A stretch of 16,463 bases of DNA, taken from positions 1-16,463 of the forward strand of contig JAQUDY010000005.1 of the NCBI GenBank assembly GCA_028685445.1, in the 5' to 3' direction. The notes below the pieces were generated by a model. That model saw only the letters and a list, made by a program, of their open reading frames with translations. It searched no databases and was not told the DNA's origin. Position 1 is the first letter of the stretch, and each line of letters starts with the position of its first letter. Below, piece by piece: positions 4,638 through 11,935 of this stretch. The position numbers and the translations under genes are program-made. The stretch is from Bacilli bacterium. GTDB lineage: Bacteria; Bacillota_I; Bacilli_A; RF39; UBA660.

Positions 4638-5234
4638 ACATCTTTCTTTAAATGGACAAGATAAGCATTCAGGGTTTCTACTTTTACAATAATAGCGTCC
4701 AAATAATAAAATTTGATCTCCTACTCTATTCCATTTTTCTATCGGAATAATTTTCATTAATTCTTCTTCTACTTCTTTTACATTGGCTGTTTTTGGAACT
4801 AATCCTAAACGTTTAGAAACTCTTTCGACATGAGTATCAACTGGAATAGCTGGTACATTAAATAAAATCTTTAAAACTACATTAGCTGTTTTTCTACCTA
4901 CTCCTGGCAAACTTTCTAAATATTCTCGATCATTTGGAACGATACCATCAAAGTTATCTATGAGAGAATTAGCAATTTTATTTATATAAACTGCTTTTTT
5001 ATTAAAACTCCCAACACTTCTAATAATTTGTTTTATATCATCTAAGCTTGCTTTTGCAAGAGCAATTAAATCATACTTAGTAAATAAGACTTTAGTCACT
5101 TTATTAACTCTTCTATCCGTAGACTGAGCGCTTAAAACTGTAGCAATTAATAATTCATAATCTTTATTAAAATCAAGTTCGCAAACAGGGTTTGGTATTA
5201 AAATATCTAATAATTCGTATATTTCATTCATCAT
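4623..5234 (-). CDS. nth: Endonuclease III (DNA glycosylase/AP lyase)
   Basis: Base-excision repair enzyme that removes oxidised pyrimidines and nicks abasic sites. The 203-residue protein has the usual length. It shows the helix-hairpin-helix LPGVGRKTA (residues 109-117) with catalytic Lys115, the catalytic Asp133 in PVDTHVERV, and a complete iron-sulfur cluster signature C-x6-C-x2-C-x5-C (Cys183, 190, 193, 199). The start region reads ATGATGAATGA and overlaps the last codons of dnaD by 11 bases, with only a weak ribosome site, which suggests translational coupling. The order dnaD-nth is the same as in B. subtilis. Confidence 0.97.
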   Translation of the reverse strand: MMNEIYELLDILIPNPVCELDFNKDYELLIATVLSAQSTDRRVNKVTKVLFTKYDLIALAKASLDDIKQIIRSVGSFNKKAVYINKIANSLIDNFDGIVPNDREYLESLPGVGRKTANVVLKILFNVPAIPVDTHVERVSKRLGLVPKTANVKEVEEELMKIIPIEKWNRVGDQILLFGRYYCKSRNPECLSCPFKERCKKDD

Positions 5235-5862
5235 CTAACCAATTATAATCAAATAAAACTACTGATTCTTTATCATCTTTCTTCTTTAAATGATTCGCTA
5301 CGTCTTCTTCTTTTTTGAAACCTTTTTTATTCCATTCAAATAGAATTTTATCAATGTACCTTAAATTGCTAACTCCATTAAATGTAGCCTCTTTTAACGC
5401 TGCTACAATCAATTCTTCATTAGTTCCTGATTTTAACCAGGCATTTATTATTTCAAACTCTATAGGACTAAGTGTTCTTCCAAATTCTTTTTCAAAAATC
5501 GAGAAGATATTTTCTTTGGTCTTTTCTTTTATATCTGTATTTATATCACTTACCATAGCTCTATAAACACTACTAAGATCTAAAACTTCATTTATCTTAC
5601 CATCTGCTTTTTTAACTACATTTACTGATATTAACCCTTTAACTGTTAGTGAAGTGAAGCTTTCCATAATTTGATTATCTTTTAATGATGTAATTTCTTT
5701 TATATTTTTTAAATCTAAACTAGGAGCATCTTGATTTAAGAAATAAATAAGTAACAGCAATTCTTCTAAAATTAAATTATGATCAAGAGAAACTTTAAAT
5801 AAATGTTTTTTAAAATAAAAGTCTTTTTCTTTTACTAAACCTTCTAATATAGAATTACTCAT
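5224..5862 (-). CDS. dnaD: DNA replication initiation/primosome protein DnaD
   Basis: DnaD helps load the replicative helicase at oriC and at restarted forks in low-GC Gram-positives. The 212-residue protein has an N-terminal winged-helix-like part (about 1-100) and a C-terminal DnaD/DnaB_2 domain (about 115-185). The latter carries the family YxxxIxxxW motif as Tyr169-Ile173-Trp177, preceded by SPIEFEIINAWL. A short charged tail follows, as is usual. Start ATG 5862 has GGAAGTGA, which lies in the last codons of cca; cca ends only four bases upstream. Together with the overlap into nth, this makes cca-dnaD-nth a compact operon. It ends in TGA, showing that TGA is a stop in this genome. Confidence 0.92.
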   Translation of the reverse strand: MSNSILEGLVKEKDFYFKKHLFKVSLDHNLILEELLLLIYFLNQDAPSLDLKNIKEITSLKDNQIMESFTSLTVKGLISVNVVKKADGKINEVLDLSSVYRAMVSDINTDIKEKTKENIFSIFEKEFGRTLSPIEFEIINAWLKSGTNEELIVAALKEATFNGVSNLRYIDKILFEWNKKGFKKEEDVANHLKKKDDKESVVLFDYNWLDDE

Positions 5863-6990: not shown

Positions 6991-7149
6991 CTAACATTTC
7001 TTTTTTGATTGACTCATACTTATCGCTGAACCAATAGCTCTACCTATATCAAAAACTGTAGTTATTAACTTTGCTATAGCATTAAGTAACGTCCCCGAAA
7101 TCGCAGCACCACCTTTAATTTCATGCAATTCATATTTATTTAAAATCAT
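6991..7149 (-). CDS. Double-glycine-leader bacteriocin precursor, peptide B
   Basis: A 52-codon gene. The product begins MILNKYELHEIKGG, a consensus double-glycine leader: Leu(-12), Glu(-8), Leu(-7), Ile(-4), Gly(-2), Gly(-1). Cleavage would release a 38-residue cationic peptide starting AAISGTLLN. It has a hydrophobic/amphipathic core, a GxxxG motif (mature residues 22-26, DIGRAIGSAI), and a tail SQSKKKC ending in its only cysteine. GxxxG motifs and a basic tail are typical of one partner of class IIb two-peptide bacteriocins, which act together in the target membrane. The start lies one base after the stop of peptide A, with no clear ribosome site, so translation is probably coupled. The exporter/protease that would process it is encoded just upstream. 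I do not recognise a named close relative; a peptide pheromone is an alternative, less likely given the length and the paired gene. Confidence 0.85.
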   Translation of the reverse strand: MILNKYELHEIKGGAAISGTLLNAIAKLITTVFDIGRAIGSAISMSQSKKKC

Positions 7150-7150
7150 T

Positions 7151-7285
7151 TTAATTACATTTTAAAGGTCTTAAATATCCATCAATAATACCCGAGATAA
7201 AAGTTATTACTCCACCAATTAAACCAATTAATCCCCAAGATATTTGACCTCCTTCTATGTTTAACATTTCACTATCCGTTAACAT
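7151..7285 (-). CDS. Double-glycine-leader bacteriocin precursor, peptide A
   Basis: A 44-codon gene with a good ribosome site (AGAAAGGA, five bases before ATG 7285). The product begins MLTDSEMLNIEGG, again with Leu(-12), Glu(-8), Ile(-4) and Gly-Gly at the cleavage site. The predicted mature peptide has 31 residues, starts QISWGLIGLIGG, is very hydrophobic, and has GxxxG motifs at mature residues 8-12 and 19-23. Its only cysteine is the second-last residue (PLKCN). The gene overlaps the end of the exporter gene by 14 bases and is followed after one base by peptide B, so exporter and both peptides are on one transcript. Hydrophobic peptide A and cationic peptide B fit a two-peptide class IIb bacteriocin. 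No motif for lanthionine, circular or sactipeptide modification enzymes is present nearby. Confidence 0.87.
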   Translation of the reverse strand: MLTDSEMLNIEGGQISWGLIGLIGGVITFISGIIDGYLRPLKCN

Positions 7286-9227
7286 ATTTTTCCTTTCTAG
7301 CAGTTAAATCAATAATTTGATCGTAATTCAGATTATCTTTATGATGACTTATATAAATAATTGTTTTTAATTTATAATGTTTGAATAAGTTTTTTAATAT
7401 TAGTTTTCTTTCATCTTTAGCAATCTCATTTAAAGATTCATCTAATAAAAGAATATTAAAGTCATTGTATAATGCTCTTGCTAAAATAATTTTTTGTTTT
7501 TCACCACCACTTAAGTTACTTAAATTAGTAATAGTGAAATTTACTCCATTAAGTTTACTATTAATTAGTTTATCTAATAATAAGACCTTGCTTATAAGAA
7601 GGATCTTTTTTGCATCATACTTTTTTCCTAAGGTGATATTATCTATTATAGATCCTTGAAAGATTTCAGCATCTTGATGAATATAACTTATCTTATTATT
7701 ATAAGTAGCTAAACCTTCATAGTCAGTAATATTTCCATATATGATATCTAATAAAGTACTTTTACCTGAACCGTTAGTACCTTTTATTAAGACTTTATTA
7801 CCTATCGGAATTTTTAAAGTAATATTTTCTAATACATAATCTATATTATTATAAGTATAACTAATATTATTTAAGTAAATATTTTTATCTAGTTTCTTTT
7901 TTGGAATTTCAATTTCGATATCATAAATGCTTTTTATTCGATGAAAGATGTCTTTAAAGTACATAATCATAGGTAGTAGATTAATATAGTATTTAATACC
8001 ATCAAAATAATAATTAAATATCATTAAATATAATAATATAAATTCTACTTTAATACTATAATTATAGAAATATATAAGAATTAAAACCATAACTATTTCT
8101 TCAAAAAGACTACTAATAAATTCAAATTTATTAGTCTTTTTTTCTAAATCTAGTTTTTTTATATTAGAATCTTTTATTAAGAAAGAAATATTATTTTTAA
8201 AAAATAAACTCCTATTTGTCTTAATAGTTAAAACCTTATTTAAGTACTCAACAATTTTATCTATTAAATTATTGTCACTTTCAATACTAAAAATAATTTT
8301 ATTGTAGATCGTTTTATTTAATATATATAAAACAATAATATAAACTAATGAAATAAAAAATAATAATATAGTTAAACGAAATTCAATAATAAAAAGTAAA
8401 ATCGCACTAAATATTACTAATAAAGTAATAATTATTACATCTAAAATAGTTTTAGAAAATAAGCTTTTTACACTATCTAAATCTTTTATTCTATTTAAAA
8501 AGTCACCTGGCATTTTTAACTGCAAATATTTCAAAGGAAGATTAAAAATCCGTTCTAAATAATTTTCTAATAAACTTATGTTAACTTCTTTGTTTAAGTG
8601 AGATATTAAATTATTTTTAACATAAGTAAGTGAAATCTTTATTAACGAGATAATTATAATTAAAGGGATTAACTTTGTGTTTTTTAATAATAATGGATTA
8701 AACCCAGTGATTAAAGATAATGCTACTACGGTCAACATAATAAAAAATATCATAATTATTTTTTTTAAGTGTCTTTTATATATATCTATTAAAATCTTTT
8801 GAAAGATTTGATTTTTTTCATATTTAATAATCTTTCCAGCTGGGATTAATTCTAAAATATAACCAGTAAACATTTGATTAAATTCATTTAATGGAACTTT
8901 ATGAATCCCGCTAGCAGGGTCAATATAAGTTATATTTTCATTAATTTCGTAAATCGTAATAAAATGGCAAAAATTATTAATTTTAATTTGAGCAATGCAA
9001 GGTAATCTTATGTTTTTAAGATTAGTAGTTTTGAAACCAGTAGCAGTAAATCCATACTTGATACTAGCCATTTTTAAATTATAAAAGTTTGTTCCTTCAC
9101 TACTGGTTAAAGTATCAATTTTTATTACTTCTAAAGGAATATAACCTTTATAATATTTTATTATTGATAAAAGAGCACATGCACCACAGTCAGCATTATC
9201 TTCTTGTTTTATTATATATTTTTTCAT
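7272..9227 (-). CDS. Peptidase-containing ABC exporter (PCAT) for double-glycine peptides
   Basis: Bacteriocin ABC transporter that cuts off the leader on the cytoplasmic side and exports the mature peptide. The 651-residue protein has three parts. First, an N-terminal C39 cysteine protease (1-about 130) with KQEDNADCGACALL placing catalytic Cys14, His88 in FCHFITIYE, and Asp103 in YIDPASG. Second, a membrane domain (about 150-420). Third, an ATPase with Walker A GTNGSGKST (483-491), Q-loop Gln518, signature LSGGEKQ (572-578), Walker B ILLLDES (592-598) and H-loop His in YISHH (about 628). All catalytic residues are present, so it looks functional. It is a little shorter than typical 700-plus-residue relatives. 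Ribosome site AAAGGAAGG precedes ATG 9227. Its natural substrates are evidently the two leader peptides encoded at its 3' end. No HlyD-like accessory protein is nearby. Confidence 0.95.
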   Translation of the reverse strand: MKKYIIKQEDNADCGACALLSIIKYYKGYIPLEVIKIDTLTSSEGTNFYNLKMASIKYGFTATGFKTTNLKNIRLPCIAQIKINNFCHFITIYEINENITYIDPASGIHKVPLNEFNQMFTGYILELIPAGKIIKYEKNQIFQKILIDIYKRHLKKIIMIFFIMLTVVALSLITGFNPLLLKNTKLIPLIIIISLIKISLTYVKNNLISHLNKEVNISLLENYLERIFNLPLKYLQLKMPGDFLNRIKDLDSVKSLFSKTILDVIIITLLVIFSAILLFIIEFRLTILLFFISLVYIIVLYILNKTIYNKIIFSIESDNNLIDKIVEYLNKVLTIKTNRSLFFKNNISFLIKDSNIKKLDLEKKTNKFEFISSLFEEIVMVLILIYFYNYSIKVEFILLYLMIFNYYFDGIKYYINLLPMIMYFKDIFHRIKSIYDIEIEIPKKKLDKNIYLNNISYTYNNIDYVLENITLKIPIGNKVLIKGTNGSGKSTLLDIIYGNITDYEGLATYNNKISYIHQDAEIFQGSIIDNITLGKKYDAKKILLISKVLLLDKLINSKLNGVNFTITNLSNLSGGEKQKIILARALYNDFNILLLDESLNEIAKDERKLILKNLFKHYKLKTIIYISHHKDNLNYDQIIDLTARKEKYVNG

Positions 9228-9277
9228 AACCTTCCTTTCACTTATATTTGTTATAAATGAAGAAAGTTTTTCCTTTT

Positions 9278-9940
9278 TTATTTATCTTGTTTTTTTGATT
9301 TTAAATTTATTATTTTTTCAATTAACTCTTCATTATTTTTTATTAAATAAGGATATGCTTTTAATAGTCTTGTTTTAATACTGTTTAAAATTTTCTTATG
9401 AGTTAAGTTTATTTTAGTAGTTAATTTAGAAATATTTTTACTTGTTTTATATGCAGCTATGCTGCTATTGATAAAGTCTATAAGAAATATAGCTAGAAAT
9501 AATACTGCAGTTATAATTTTAACTTTATAATCTAAGTTAGTTAAAACGGAATTAATAATTGGAGAAATTATATAAATAATTATAATGCAGCCTATTCCAA
9601 ATAGTAGTGAGTTTTTAAGGGCTATTCTACCGTTGATATTATACTTTAAATAAGAATAATCCCACCACCTTTTATTAAATAGTTTTTCCATGATATAACT
9701 TGTAATATATTCTAAGACTGAACATATTAACATTCCTATAAAAAATACAATTATTATATTTTCTTGATATTCTGTTAAACAAATAATTGTCAAAACACTC
9801 CCAAAACCATAAATAGGAATATAAGGCCCATTTAAAAATCCACGGTTGATTAATTTTTTACTACCAATATAAACATATATAACTTCTACAATATATCCTA
9901 TTATTGAAAATAGCATGAACATTAAAATAATATTTAACAA
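9278..9940 (-). CDS. Putative ABC-transporter type IV (CmpB-like) membrane protein
   Basis: A multispanning membrane protein of the CmpB/putative ABC-transporter type IV family. Visible family features are the first helix ending in GYIVEVIYVY, the NRGFLNGPYIPIYGFG loop, FNKRWWDYS followed by NINGRIALKNSLLFG, and about five to six hydrophobic segments. A basic/polar cytoplasmic tail closes it. Start choice: an ORF can begin at GTG 9949, but that codon overlaps the AGGTGA ribosome site. TTG 9940, five bases downstream of the site, is the better start (the same architecture as the recU TTG start) and gives 220 residues. It is the first gene of the operon, 50 bases before the exporter. The biochemical role of the family is not well defined. 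Its position suggests accessory transport or producer immunity; that is inference only. Confidence 0.75.
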   Translation of the reverse strand: MLNIILMFMLFSIIGYIVEVIYVYIGSKKLINRGFLNGPYIPIYGFGSVLTIICLTEYQENIIIVFFIGMLICSVLEYITSYIMEKLFNKRWWDYSYLKYNINGRIALKNSLLFGIGCIIIIYIISPIINSVLTNLDYKVKIITAVLFLAIFLIDFINSSIAAYKTSKNISKLTTKINLTHKKILNSIKTRLLKAYPYLIKNNEELIEKIINLKSKKQDK

Positions 9941-10169
9941 TGAAATCACCTACTTACATTGTAACAAATTAATATTTTAAAATCTAGAAAAGGAAAACAA
10001 CATTTTATTACAACAAGTAATTATGAGAGGTTCTCTCAGTGAGATATTATAAGGAGGTTTAAGATGTTTAAGATTATTATTAAAATAGTAATATACGCTA
10101 TTGGGTTATTGTTATAAAATGTAATAATTAAAAATAAAAGAAATATAATATACAAATGGAGGATTTTAA
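9941..10169. promoter_or_regulatory. Divergent intergenic region between bacteriocin operon and sporulation cluster
   Basis: About 230 bases that must hold the minus-strand promoter of the bacteriocin operon and a plus-strand promoter for the sporulation genes. It contains an alternating set of half-sites, TGAGAG (10024-10029), CTCTCA (10033-10038) and TGAGA (10040-10044), which makes two overlapping palindromes (operator-like). It also contains the micro-ORF at 10064-10117. TATAAT-like hexamers occur on both strands, but none has a convincing -35 partner. Confidence 0.45.
10064..10117 (+). CDS. Possible 17-residue hydrophobic micropeptide
   Basis: ATG 10064 is preceded by AAGGAGG at 10051-10057 with six bases between, the strongest ribosome site in the window. 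The frame encodes MFKIIIKIVIYAIGLLL and then TAA. The peptide is a single hydrophobic segment with two lysines near the N-terminus, as in membrane-associated micropeptides. It lies 52 bases before the spoIIIAH-like gene on the same strand. I recognise no family. It could be a small sporulation membrane peptide, a leader peptide controlling spoIIIAH, or a type I toxin-like peptide. The near-consensus ribosome site is the main support; an ORF this short can occur by chance. Confidence 0.5.
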   Translation: MFKIIIKIVIYAIGLLL

Positions 10170-10664
10170 ATGATTAATAAACAAAACTTATGGTTTTTAA
10201 CTTTATTTAGTATAATTTTAGTTCTATCAGTATACTATATTGCCTTACCAGGAGAAACATTGACTTCTTTAATTTCAGCAGATCAAACAAAAAGCGATAA
10301 GATTAATACTGGAATTAATGAAAGTGATTTTCTAGCTAGCTTAAGAATAGAAAATGATGAGACTGTTTTAAAAGAAATGTCTGATCTTCAAAAATCACTT
10401 CTAGATAGTGCGGTTAGTGCTGAGGATAAAAATAATGCTTATGAAAAACTGTTAAATATCAATTTAAATAAAGGAAAAGAAAGTTCTTTAGAATCATTAA
10501 TTTTAAAAAGTTATAATTTAAAAAGTTTTATTAAAATTAATGATGATAAAATAAGCGTAATTATTTCTTCAAATGATGGTTCGTACGAAAAAGCCAACAA
10601 TATAATTAGAACTATTCAAAAAGAATTTGCTGAAAAGATGTATATTACTGTTAAGTTCCAATAA
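10170..10664 (+). CDS. spoIIIAH: SpoIIIAH-like stage III sporulation protein
   Basis: In spore formers SpoIIIAH sits in the mother-cell membrane and meets SpoIIQ from the forespore, forming part of the channel that feeds the engulfed forespore. The 164-residue protein has the family start (MINKQNLWFLTLFSIILVLSVYYI), where residues 8-27 are the membrane anchor. A polar linker follows, then a C-terminal ring-building-type domain (about 68-164) with the helix-sheet pattern of SpoIIIAH/EscJ proteins (ESSLESLILKSYNLKSFIKI, then IIRTIQKEFAEKMYITVKF). It is shorter than B. subtilis SpoIIIAH (218 residues), mainly in the linker. A TGGAGG ribosome site precedes ATG 10170. The rest of the spoIIIA operon (AA-AG) is not upstream, so the gene stands apart here. 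Regulation by a mother-cell sigma factor is likely from the family, but no clear promoter was found. Confidence 0.85.
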   Translation: MINKQNLWFLTLFSIILVLSVYYIALPGETLTSLISADQTKSDKINTGINESDFLASLRIENDETVLKEMSDLQKSLLDSAVSAEDKNNAYEKLLNINLNKGKESSLESLILKSYNLKSFIKINDDKISVIISSNDGSYEKANNIIRTIQKEFAEKMYITVKFQ

Positions 10665-10665
10665 T

Positions 10666-10730
10666 AAACTTTAAAACTCACTTTAAAATAGTTTTTTCAT
10701 AAAATATTATGAAGGGATAATGAAAGTGAG
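10666..10730 (+). promoter_or_regulatory. gerE leader: nested inverted repeats and sigma-K-like promoter
   Basis: The outer arms CTCACTTT (10677-10684) and AAAGTGAG (10723-10730) are perfect complements; the right arm runs into the gerE ribosome site (GAGGG). Inside is a perfect 7-bp hairpin, TTCATAA (10696-10702) with TTATGAA (10707-10713). CATAAAATA at 10698-10706 fits the sigma-K -10 pattern CATANNNTA, with AC (10680-10681) 16 bases upstream as the minimal -35. AAAC/GTTT plus TTTAAA pairs before a T-run (10666-10697) could also act as a weak terminator for spoIIIAH. These readings partly exclude each other. Confidence 0.45.
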
Positions 10731-10739
10731 GGAACATAA

Positions 10740-10946
10740 ATGAAAAGTAGTATCTTGACACTTAGAGAGAAAGAAGTTTTCGAGCTTTTAGTTTTAAATA
10801 AAACCACTAAAGAAATAAGTGAATTTTTAGGAATTAGTGAAAAAACTGTTAGAAACCATATTTCTAATGCTATGCAAAAATTAAATGTTAAAGGACGTTC
10901 TGGTGCAATTATTGAATTATTAAAACTAGGAGAATTAACACTATAA
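10740..10946 (+). CDS. gerE: Late sporulation transcription regulator GerE
   Basis: GerE is the small LuxR/NarL-type DNA-binding regulator that, in Bacillus, switches mother-cell sigma-K genes for spore coat formation late in sporulation. The 68-residue product is essentially only the helix-turn-helix domain, as in GerE (74 residues in B. subtilis). The match along TLREKEVFELLV, NKTTKEISEFLGISEKTVRNHISNAMQKL (residues 20-48), VKGRSGAIIELL and GELTL is very close to the Bacillus protein, including the recognition helix. There is no receiver or ligand domain, consistent with GerE rather than a response regulator. Ribosome site GAGGG precedes ATG 10740; the leader contains nested inverted repeats and a sigma-K-like -10. 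A strong terminator follows directly, so gerE may form its own transcript. Confidence 0.95.
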   Translation: MKSSILTLREKEVFELLVLNKTTKEISEFLGISEKTVRNHISNAMQKLNVKGRSGAIIELLKLGELTL

Positions 10947-10970
10947 AAGTCACTATTGTGACTTTTTTTT
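10945..10970 (+). terminator. Rho-independent terminator of gerE
   Basis: AAAAGTCAC (10945-10953) pairs perfectly with GTGACTTTT (10958-10966) around TATT, followed by T to 10970. The left foot overlaps the gerE stop codon. This is the clearest terminator in the window. Confidence 0.92.
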
Positions 10971-11002
10971 AATTATTATCATATATTTTAATGAGGTGTT
11001 TT

Positions 11003-11935
11003 ATGTTAAAAAAAAGTTTGTTAAAAAGAATTTTTTTAGTTTTCTCTACCCTTTTTATTCTTTTTATTTTATATTTGTTTCCTACGAATGAGAATAACAA
11101 CAATATAATTAAAGATAATAAAGAAGCTGTTAACCAAACTACTATTTATTTAATCGACAATATGAATTTTGTCTCTAGAGTTAATGTTGTAATAAACAAT
11201 AAGAACAAAATAGAAAAAGTAAAAGAGATAATCAATTATTTAACAATTAACAGTGCTAGTTCTAACTATATTAAAGAAGGGTTTACTGGCATTATACCTA
11301 AAAACACTAAATTATTATCAGTTGATATTGATGATTCTTTAGTCAAGCTAAATTTTAGCAAAGAATTTTATGATATTGATGAGGGCTTAGAAGAAAAAAT
11401 GATTAGTGCTATAATTTATTCTATTACAGGAATAGACGGAATAGATAAGATTAGCATATATGTAGATGACAGCCTTTTAGTAGAGATGCCAAAATCTAAA
11501 ACACCGATGCCGCCTGCATTAGACAGAGGATTTGGTATTAATAAAATCTATGACTTAACATCTATTAAAGGTTCAACGAGTACAACAATATATTATTTAA
11601 GTAAATATAAAGACTATTATTATTATGTTCCAGTAACAATGATTAGTAATTCAGTTAAAGATAAAATAGAAATAATCATAGAAGAATTGACTAGTAAAAC
11701 AATATATCAAACGAATCTTATTAGTTATTTAAATGATGCTAAAAAAATTAGTTATGAAATTACAGACGACTATTTATTAATAAAGTTAAATAGTGAGTTA
11801 TATTATGATTTACACCACAATAATCTAATTGAAACTGTCATTTATTCTATGAATTTATCTATTAAAGAAAATTATAATATTAAAAGTGTTATCTATTTAA
11901 AAGAAGATACTGTTATTAAAAGTTTTATTATTTAA
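11003..11935 (+). CDS. gerM: Sporulation/germination protein GerM (two GerMN domains)
   Basis: GerM in B. subtilis is a mother-cell membrane protein needed for sporulation and germination that helps place the SpoIIIA-SpoIIQ complex. The 310-residue product has one N-terminal membrane anchor (about residues 8-26), no lipobox, and two GerMN-type repeats. The first repeat is about residues 43-160 (TTIYLIDN to KISIYVDDSLL), the second about 190-305 (TTIYYLSK to VIYLKEDTVI). Start choice: an in-frame ATG at 10991 is itself part of the GAGGTG ribosome site, so ATG 11003, six bases after that site, is the real start. In B. subtilis gerM lies two genes after gerE, so the pairing here is conserved synteny without racE. 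It functionally matches the SpoIIIAH-like protein upstream. Confidence 0.88.
   Translation: MLKKSLLKRIFLVFSTLFILFILYLFPTNENNNNIIKDNKEAVNQTTIYLIDNMNFVSRVNVVINNKNKIEKVKEIINYLTINSASSNYIKEGFTGIIPKNTKLLSVDIDDSLVKLNFSKEFYDIDEGLEEKMISAIIYSITGIDGIDKISIYVDDSLLVEMPKSKTPMPPALDRGFGINKIYDLTSIKGSTSTTIYYLSKYKDYYYYVPVTMISNSVKDKIEIIIEELTSKTIYQTNLISYLNDAKKISYEITDDYLLIKLNSELYYDLHHNNLIETVIYSMNLSIKENYNIKSVIYLKEDTVIKSFII

Follow-up and report, generated by a model that had tools for sequence, protein, structure and literature searches.

A putative class IIb-like two-peptide system conserved throughout one family of Bacilli

Introduction

Two small genes lie at the 3' end of a gene for a C39-peptidase ATP-binding cassette (ABC) exporter in a 16,463-nucleotide stretch (contig JAQUDY010000005.1 of assembly GCA_028685445.1, a Bacilli bacterium), and the question raised by this locus is whether they encode a new bacteriocin of a single genome or belong to something wider. 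The whole stretch is called the window here; its source genome comprises 917 kb in 126 contigs and is 87.9% complete. A first-pass annotation, made from the letters alone, had described positions 6991 to 9940 as a complete two-peptide, class IIb-like bacteriocin operon whose unrecognised peptides may be new. As judged by sequence comparison across related genomes, the two genes are not a new singleton bacteriocin but part of a family-wide conserved class IIb-like system.

Results and Discussion

The gene pair and its exporter

The gene order, read on the minus strand from the list of open reading frames (ORFs) with their translations, is exporter, beta, alpha. The features are as follows, A1 and A2 being alignments of 42 alphas and 43 betas, respectively.

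7272-9227, minus strand: C39-peptidase ABC exporter gene, 651 residues, predicted to cleave the leaders of both peptides and to export them (ORF, Pfam)
8841-9221, minus strand: C39 peptidase domain of the exporter, residues 3-129 (Pfam match coordinates and sequence)
7431-7832, minus strand: ATP-binding domain of the exporter, residues 466-599 (Pfam match coordinates)
7151-7285, minus strand: beta precursor gene, 44 residues with a 13-residue double-glycine leader (ORF, class IIb model scores, A2)
7154-7246, minus strand: predicted mature beta, 31 residues, hydrophobic, with GIIDG and one Cys near the C-terminus (sequence)
6991-7149, minus strand: alpha precursor gene, 52 residues with a 14-residue double-glycine leader (ORF, A1, family profile)
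6994-7107, minus strand: predicted mature alpha, 38 residues, cationic, with GRAIG and a C-terminal Cys (AlphaFold2 model, A1)

The beta gene start overlaps the exporter 3' end by 14 nucleotides and a single nucleotide separates the beta stop from the alpha start; the first-pass annotation had spoken of an overlap or a gap of one base. Two adjacent genes thus encode two different small peptides, with double-glycine leaders, beside a C39-peptidase ABC exporter. Class IIb bacteriocins depend on both of their peptides for optimal antimicrobial activity. The double-glycine leader consensus comprises Leu-12, Glu-8, Ile-4, Gly-2 and Gly-1, and all of these residues are present in the leaders MILNKYELHEIKGG and MLTDSEMLNIEGG, again in agreement with the earlier description, which also gave the right mature lengths. 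GxxxG motifs, a hallmark of class IIb two-peptide bacteriocins when found in both peptides, occur in both cores (GRAIG in alpha, GLIGG and GIIDG in beta), and each core contains one Cys. The described contrast between a hydrophobic and a cationic peptide was borne out by calculation: the beta core has a grand average of hydropathy (GRAVY) of 0.93 and a net charge at pH 7 of +0.7, the alpha core 0.60 and +3.8. The monoisotopic masses calculated for mature alpha and mature beta are 3877.15 and 3315.84, respectively. In a profile comparison (hhalign) of alpha and beta only columns 1-35 align, that is, the leader and the start of the core. An AlphaFold2 model of the alpha precursor (mean predicted local distance difference test score, pLDDT, 77.4) showed a helix over residues 19-48.

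The exporter matched Peptidase_C39 (E 2.4e-25), ABC_tran (6.1e-20) and ABC_membrane (5.5e-8), and its C39 domain contains DCGACALLS and CHFITIYEI...DPASG, which resemble an intact active site. A purine-rich stretch is found 5' of the ATG of the exporter and beta genes and is missing upstream of that of alpha, which suggests that translation of alpha is coupled to that of beta.

Distribution in the family

Apart from the window's own peptides, single-sequence protein searches gave 11 relatives of alpha and 3 of beta, and exporter relatives were present in 65 of 117 related genomes, the source genome included (E ≤ 1e-40). When about 6 kb around the exporter matches in related genomes was read for neighbours, a beta-alpha pair was found after most related exporters, even those only 25-37% identical. 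Invariant positions were GG, G36, G40 and C52 in the 42 alphas of A1, and GG, G36 and C43 in the 43 betas of A2.

With every match at E ≤ 0.001 counted, a profile of alpha detected the peptide in 357 of the 386 genomes sampled from the window's family (241 of the 251 of high quality) and in 144 of their 150 genera; the matches listed with coordinates span nearly the whole profile. A class-wide draw of genomes gave alpha in 35 of 38 family members and matches in 7 of 258 others, all inside positions 1-32 of 55; a phylum-wide draw gave 14 of 14 family members and partial matches in 16 of 330 others, none past position 40 and all stopping short of the second Gly of GxxxG (profile position 41) and of the Cys (53). 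No full-length alpha match outside the family was found in either draw. Against about 5.8 billion proteins the profile had 528 matches at E ≤ 1e-3; among the 120 of these that were listed there was no Pfam domain, and the few with a name were called 'hypothetical protein' and came from Bacilli or Mollicutes bacteria. Within one family of small-genome Bacilli alpha is thus nearly universal, and the idea of a lone new pair was rejected on its occurrence in nearly all sampled genera.

Alpha-leader-like segments were also seen in open frames of 76-141 residues in another small-genome family (f4; e.g., G072:C1:578344-578430); these possibly represent a different family of double-glycine substrates.

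Alpha was present in 119 of the 127 fetched loci that entered a profile scan. A beta gene lay upstream on the same strand in 115 of them, within 100 nucleotides in 113, and was not found in the other 4 by the scan of the fetched stretches. After the leader, 117 of the 119 alphas have a GxxxG, and just as many have a Cys within the last six residues; of 116 betas, 113 have the motif and 112 the Cys. The alphas lacking the Cys are a contig-end fragment and an atypical copy; the betas are one shortened gene and three longer-tailed ones in which the Cys is still present. Exactly one core Cys was counted in 110 of 117 alphas and 102 of 112 betas.

Irregular arrangements were noted at some loci. At L061 (G022; from about 5449-5568 onwards) the gene immediately after a prematurely ending beta lies on the opposite strand and was named by eye as recombinase-like, which gives the appearance of a mobile element inserted in beta; this genome has an alpha match and a match to the third protein, C, described below, elsewhere. 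A 227-residue methyltransferase-like ORF, also named by eye, lies between the otherwise adjacent beta and alpha at L063 (G023; 8682-9393), and four double-glycine peptide genes stand in a row at L044 (G051; 5030-5603), by appearance a tandem second pair.

Conservation and inheritance

The core is better conserved than the leader. Mean pairwise identity was 0.32 for the leader (without GG) and 0.40 for the core among 117 alphas, and 0.31 and 0.42 among 110 betas. Within the window's genus the median ratio of nonsynonymous to synonymous substitution rates (dN/dS) of alpha was 0.78 for the leader (23 usable of 28 pairs) and 0.14 for the core (22 usable). The cores are under purifying selection, and since the beta-alpha order is kept across loci and the alpha core shows so low a ratio, the observed gene pair is far beyond chance.

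In 52 genomes, distances in the exporter tree track those of RpoB, with a Spearman Mantel coefficient of 0.47 where the highest of 500 permutations reached 0.19; the nearest neighbour by RpoB stood at median rank 3.5 of 51. The distances of alpha and those of beta are correlated with each other once RpoB is taken into account (n = 48; r 0.37, exceeding each of 1000 permutations). An interacting pair inherited mainly in the vertical line would give such distances.

Curated class IIb models

The window's beta scored 29.2 bits against NF038034 (lactococcin G-beta/enterocin 1071B; cut-off 37) and 19.5 bits against TIGR03949 (lactobin A/cerein 7B; cut-off 21.5), below the cut-off in both cases. At E ≤ 0.1, 40 of the 43 betas matched TIGR03949 and 31 matched NF038034, and NF038035 matched 14 betas and 12 alphas. 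When ten relatives' betas were scanned singly, eight passed TIGR03949, at 23.6 to 32.8 bits and with matches that extended into the core, among them one from the window's own genus (L037, 24.3 bits); none passed NF038034, the best reaching 31.9 bits. These passes support the class IIb reading and lower the claim that the peptide is unrecognised: what stands of that claim is that database comparison of the two precursors brought the window's peptides to no model cut-off, and what does not stand is their novelty as a singleton, their relatives being found family-wide. By curated model in the relatives beta belongs, as far as such scores indicate, to the wider class IIb world, and alpha does not.

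The same figures bear on the possibility that nothing more than a known kind of class IIb bacteriocin, the lactobin A/cerein 7B or the lactococcin G type, is present and has gone unannotated in these genomes. The TIGR03949 passes and the standard gene set of many relatives speak for it, and such precursors may already figure in the results of IIBacFinder-type mining of about 280,000 gut genomes (PMC12648078). The window's beta, however, lies below both cut-offs, no relative's beta passes NF038034, and alpha is not recognised beyond its leader. The resemblance to lactobin A/cerein 7B is one of beta, alpha matching at most through its leader, and the ending, with a GYxRPxxC motif, is different; that to lactococcin G/enterocin 1071 consists of the class IIb layout and of matches to NF038034 and NF038035 that fall short of the cut-off for the window and for each of the 20 relatives' peptides rescanned. 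To our knowledge, a core more conserved than the leader and fixation throughout a family are not features of either group. An ordinary bacteriocin of these types is thus very unlikely.

A third gene resembling alpha in the relatives

Many relatives, L067 and L062 among them, have five genes: the exporter, an accessory protein (D) with one transmembrane segment and a barrel, beta, alpha, and C. C is a leaderless protein of 29-70 residues with one transmembrane segment, its gene overlaps the end of alpha, and it repeats the last ~17 residues of alpha in register in a table whose mode of alignment itself sets G0 and G+4 and, in part, position +5. The segment common to C and alpha has the form GxxxG...R...C. 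Picked downstream of alpha by position only (set A4), a candidate C was found in 62 of 115 alpha loci, 4 of the 119 having been left out for less than 200 nucleotides of downstream sequence. GxxxG is present in 59 of these 62 proteins (not in L060, L116 and L152) against 5 of 485 control ORFs. Set A4 matched alpha by hhalign over nearly its whole length (P 4e-9), to which shared hydrophobicity may add; the register table is the cleaner evidence for an apparent imitation of alpha. An initial alignment of C (A3, 9 rows; P 4.7e-7 over the last 29 columns of alpha) was dropped as main evidence because its rows had surfaced through alpha or beta profile hits, and beta was rejected as the model for C, hhalign having given no match with this first set. 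Candidate D, with a predicted barrel fold, was found in 67 of 110 loci. A table of D by C over these 110 loci, with L060 and L116 entered as lacking C, left 54 that keep the peptides without C.

The available text on gallocin A of Streptococcus gallolyticus (GllA1/GllA2/GIP) describes two double-glycine peptides and a third gene, gip, conferring immunity, whose product resembles the gallocin peptides and was suggested by modelling to intercalate between them (PMC10100652). Since C copies the C-terminal motif of alpha and GIP offers a precedent, C is probably, in the relatives, an immunity protein acting by mimicry of alpha. The double-glycine pair and the presence of cysteines are shared with gallocin A; in the relatives, where the order is beta, alpha, C, the small third protein appears by its sequence to imitate alpha, much as GIP resembles the gallocin peptides. 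The differences are that each gallocin peptide has two Cys and an intramolecular disulfide hairpin, whereas here there is mostly one Cys per core; that the imitation is visible here in sequence, in register and in many genera, whereas for gallocin it comes from a low-confidence structural model; and that a third gene of this kind is absent from the window, the apparent imitation of alpha being a property of the relatives' C. In size and hydrophobic membrane character the relatives' C also resembles short class IIb immunity proteins with one transmembrane segment, of which CbnZ (42 residues), BrcI (53), EnkIaz (52) and AbpIM (55) are given in the available text of a report calling the mechanism of two-peptide immunity proteins a mystery (PMC6957408).

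No accessory transport protein was found in the window, and no C was picked beside alpha in seven other genomes of its genus; the genus has either lost both C and the accessory protein or been without them from the outset. The operon therefore cannot be called complete, as it had been, neither an accessory nor an immunity gene being present.

These results also bear on whether the peptides are secreted signals or kin-recognition molecules, with C serving in the membrane as a receptor or co-factor whose likeness to alpha would let it recognise beta. Near-universal, vertically inherited peptides with conserved cores would fit a communal or housekeeping role, the loci that keep the peptides without C agree with it, and the ComC (pheromone) Pfam model matched 4 of 42 alphas at E ≤ 0.1, probably through the leader. 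On the other hand, profile scans of 16 window ORFs named no histidine kinase/response regulator pair, although a 68-residue LuxR/GerE-type protein is present; two helical, partly cationic peptides with GxxxG do not have the form of a short pheromone; five genes that include a membrane-fusion-like accessory protein make up a class IIb export set; and the majority of the relatives' betas examined reach the cut-off of a class IIb model. A signalling role is therefore considered unlikely.

Neighbouring genes

The neighbouring genes are mostly housekeeping ones. One flank of the operon has cca (44 nucleotides from the alpha stop), a dnaD-domain gene, nth, the PBP1A gene, recU and ysxC. The other carries genes for a PF06541 protein, SpoIIIAH, a 68-residue GerE/LuxR-type protein, a germane-domain protein, PPDK and a XerC/D-type recombinase. 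The nearest of these is

9278-9949: PF06541 membrane-protein gene (Pfam)

This gene was rejected as an operon member. It adjoins the exporter in the window and in G003 and G002 of the same genus, not in G001 and G004-G007 of that genus, and a PF06541 match anywhere on the stretch was found in 7 of 67 loci, the window included. The range to 9940 given by the first-pass annotation takes in a gene that does not travel with the exporter.

Positions 10170-11935 of the window hold a small sporulation-type cluster near the exporter, made up of SpoIIIAH, the 68-residue GerE/LuxR-type helix-turn-helix protein and the germane-domain protein. Such neighbours raise the alternative that the peptides are directed at the producing cells themselves, for instance during sporulation, in remodelling of the envelope or in the killing of siblings, with C tuning the action. 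Besides the window, 17 of 66 loci have SpoIIIAH on the fetched stretch that surrounds the exporter, and in the window's genus it is divergent and accompanied by the GerE-like and germane-domain genes. A regular-expression search placed an rpsU-like motif no more than 1.3 kb past alpha at 52 of 106 loci, so that the operon often lies in a housekeeping region. Set against this, 49 of 67 loci (some cut by contig ends) have no SpoIIIAH on the stretch, the neighbours vary between genera, and a dedicated exporter with an accessory protein points to release from the cell. A self-directed action is distinctly unlikely.

The favoured reading and its difficulties

An old, core-genome, class IIb-like two-peptide bacteriocin system with a C39 exporter, acting by membrane permeabilisation, is the reading we favour and regard as somewhat better than an even chance. 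From the sequences we infer cleavage, export, pairing, pore formation and killing as the steps of such a toxin. The C39 domain would cut both precursors after GG during export; mature alpha and beta would pair through their GxxxG helix faces in the target membrane and permeabilise it, and the single Cys near each C-terminus would allow an alpha-beta disulfide. Where present, C would sit in the producer membrane and occupy beta in the place of alpha, giving immunity by mimicry.

Several observations weigh against a toxin of this kind. Neither alpha nor beta of the window reaches a curated model cut-off, so that of the class IIb-like label there stand the double-glycine leaders, the C39 exporter, the GxxxG motifs and the relatives' passes, not recognition of the window's own peptides; the one alpha of ten relatives that passes a class IIb cut-off (L095, TIGR03949, 24.8 bits) does so over residues 2-25, mostly leader. 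Within the window's genus the beta leader is not less constrained than the beta core (median dN/dS 0.18 from 20 usable pairs and 0.27 from 23, respectively). Conserved cores and near-universality are unlike a diversifying, strain-variable weapon. By the position rule 53 of 115 alpha loci are without C, which is awkward for a self-toxic bacteriocin, and with RpoB accounted for, C distances showed no correlation with those of alpha (partial Mantel r 0.09, permutation fraction 0.21) or with those of beta (r 0.12, fraction 0.16; n = 24 in both). No dedicated immunity gene was recognised in or near the window's operon, and the C profile found nothing at E ≤ 0.05 in its own genome (best E 0.13), an absence not proven in a genome 87.9% complete. 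Self-protection thus stays unexplained in the window's genus and at those 53 loci, and it is here above all that the toxin reading is weak.

Because the pair is a family core gene and not a strain-variable weapon, it would serve a constant need, most simply that of opening neighbours' membranes, although that proposal is speculative. The fatty-acid synthesis gene fabF was found in 1 of 69 family genomes against 24 of 45 others, in line with the RF39 order, nearly all genomes of which are without fatty-acid synthesis according to the available text of PMC6784871. The sole fabF-bearing genome among the 69 (G014, locus L043) also has a weaker alpha match (E 5.9e-9). In its fullest form the bacteriocin reading would be an ancestral, vertically inherited core-genome toxin fixed in a family unable to make fatty acids (probably RF39), in which a heterodimer linked by a disulfide between the C-terminal Cys residues would open neighbours' membranes to feed on their lipids and metabolites, and the immunity protein would have evolved from the alpha helix as a membrane-tethered decoy blocking beta; taken as a whole, this extension is unlikely.

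Conclusions

Beyond what had first been described for this locus are the conserved Cys near each C-terminus, the conservation of the core over the leader, and the third gene of relatives that mimics alpha. Bacteriocins are usually thought of as strain-variable accessory weapons, and a near-universal core gene of a family, with its core conserved over its leader, raises the question of what constant job such peptides would do. The apparent imitation of alpha by C makes the question of class IIb immunity directly testable through the shared ~17-residue motif, and the peptide family may serve as a marker for a group represented here by genome assemblies alone.

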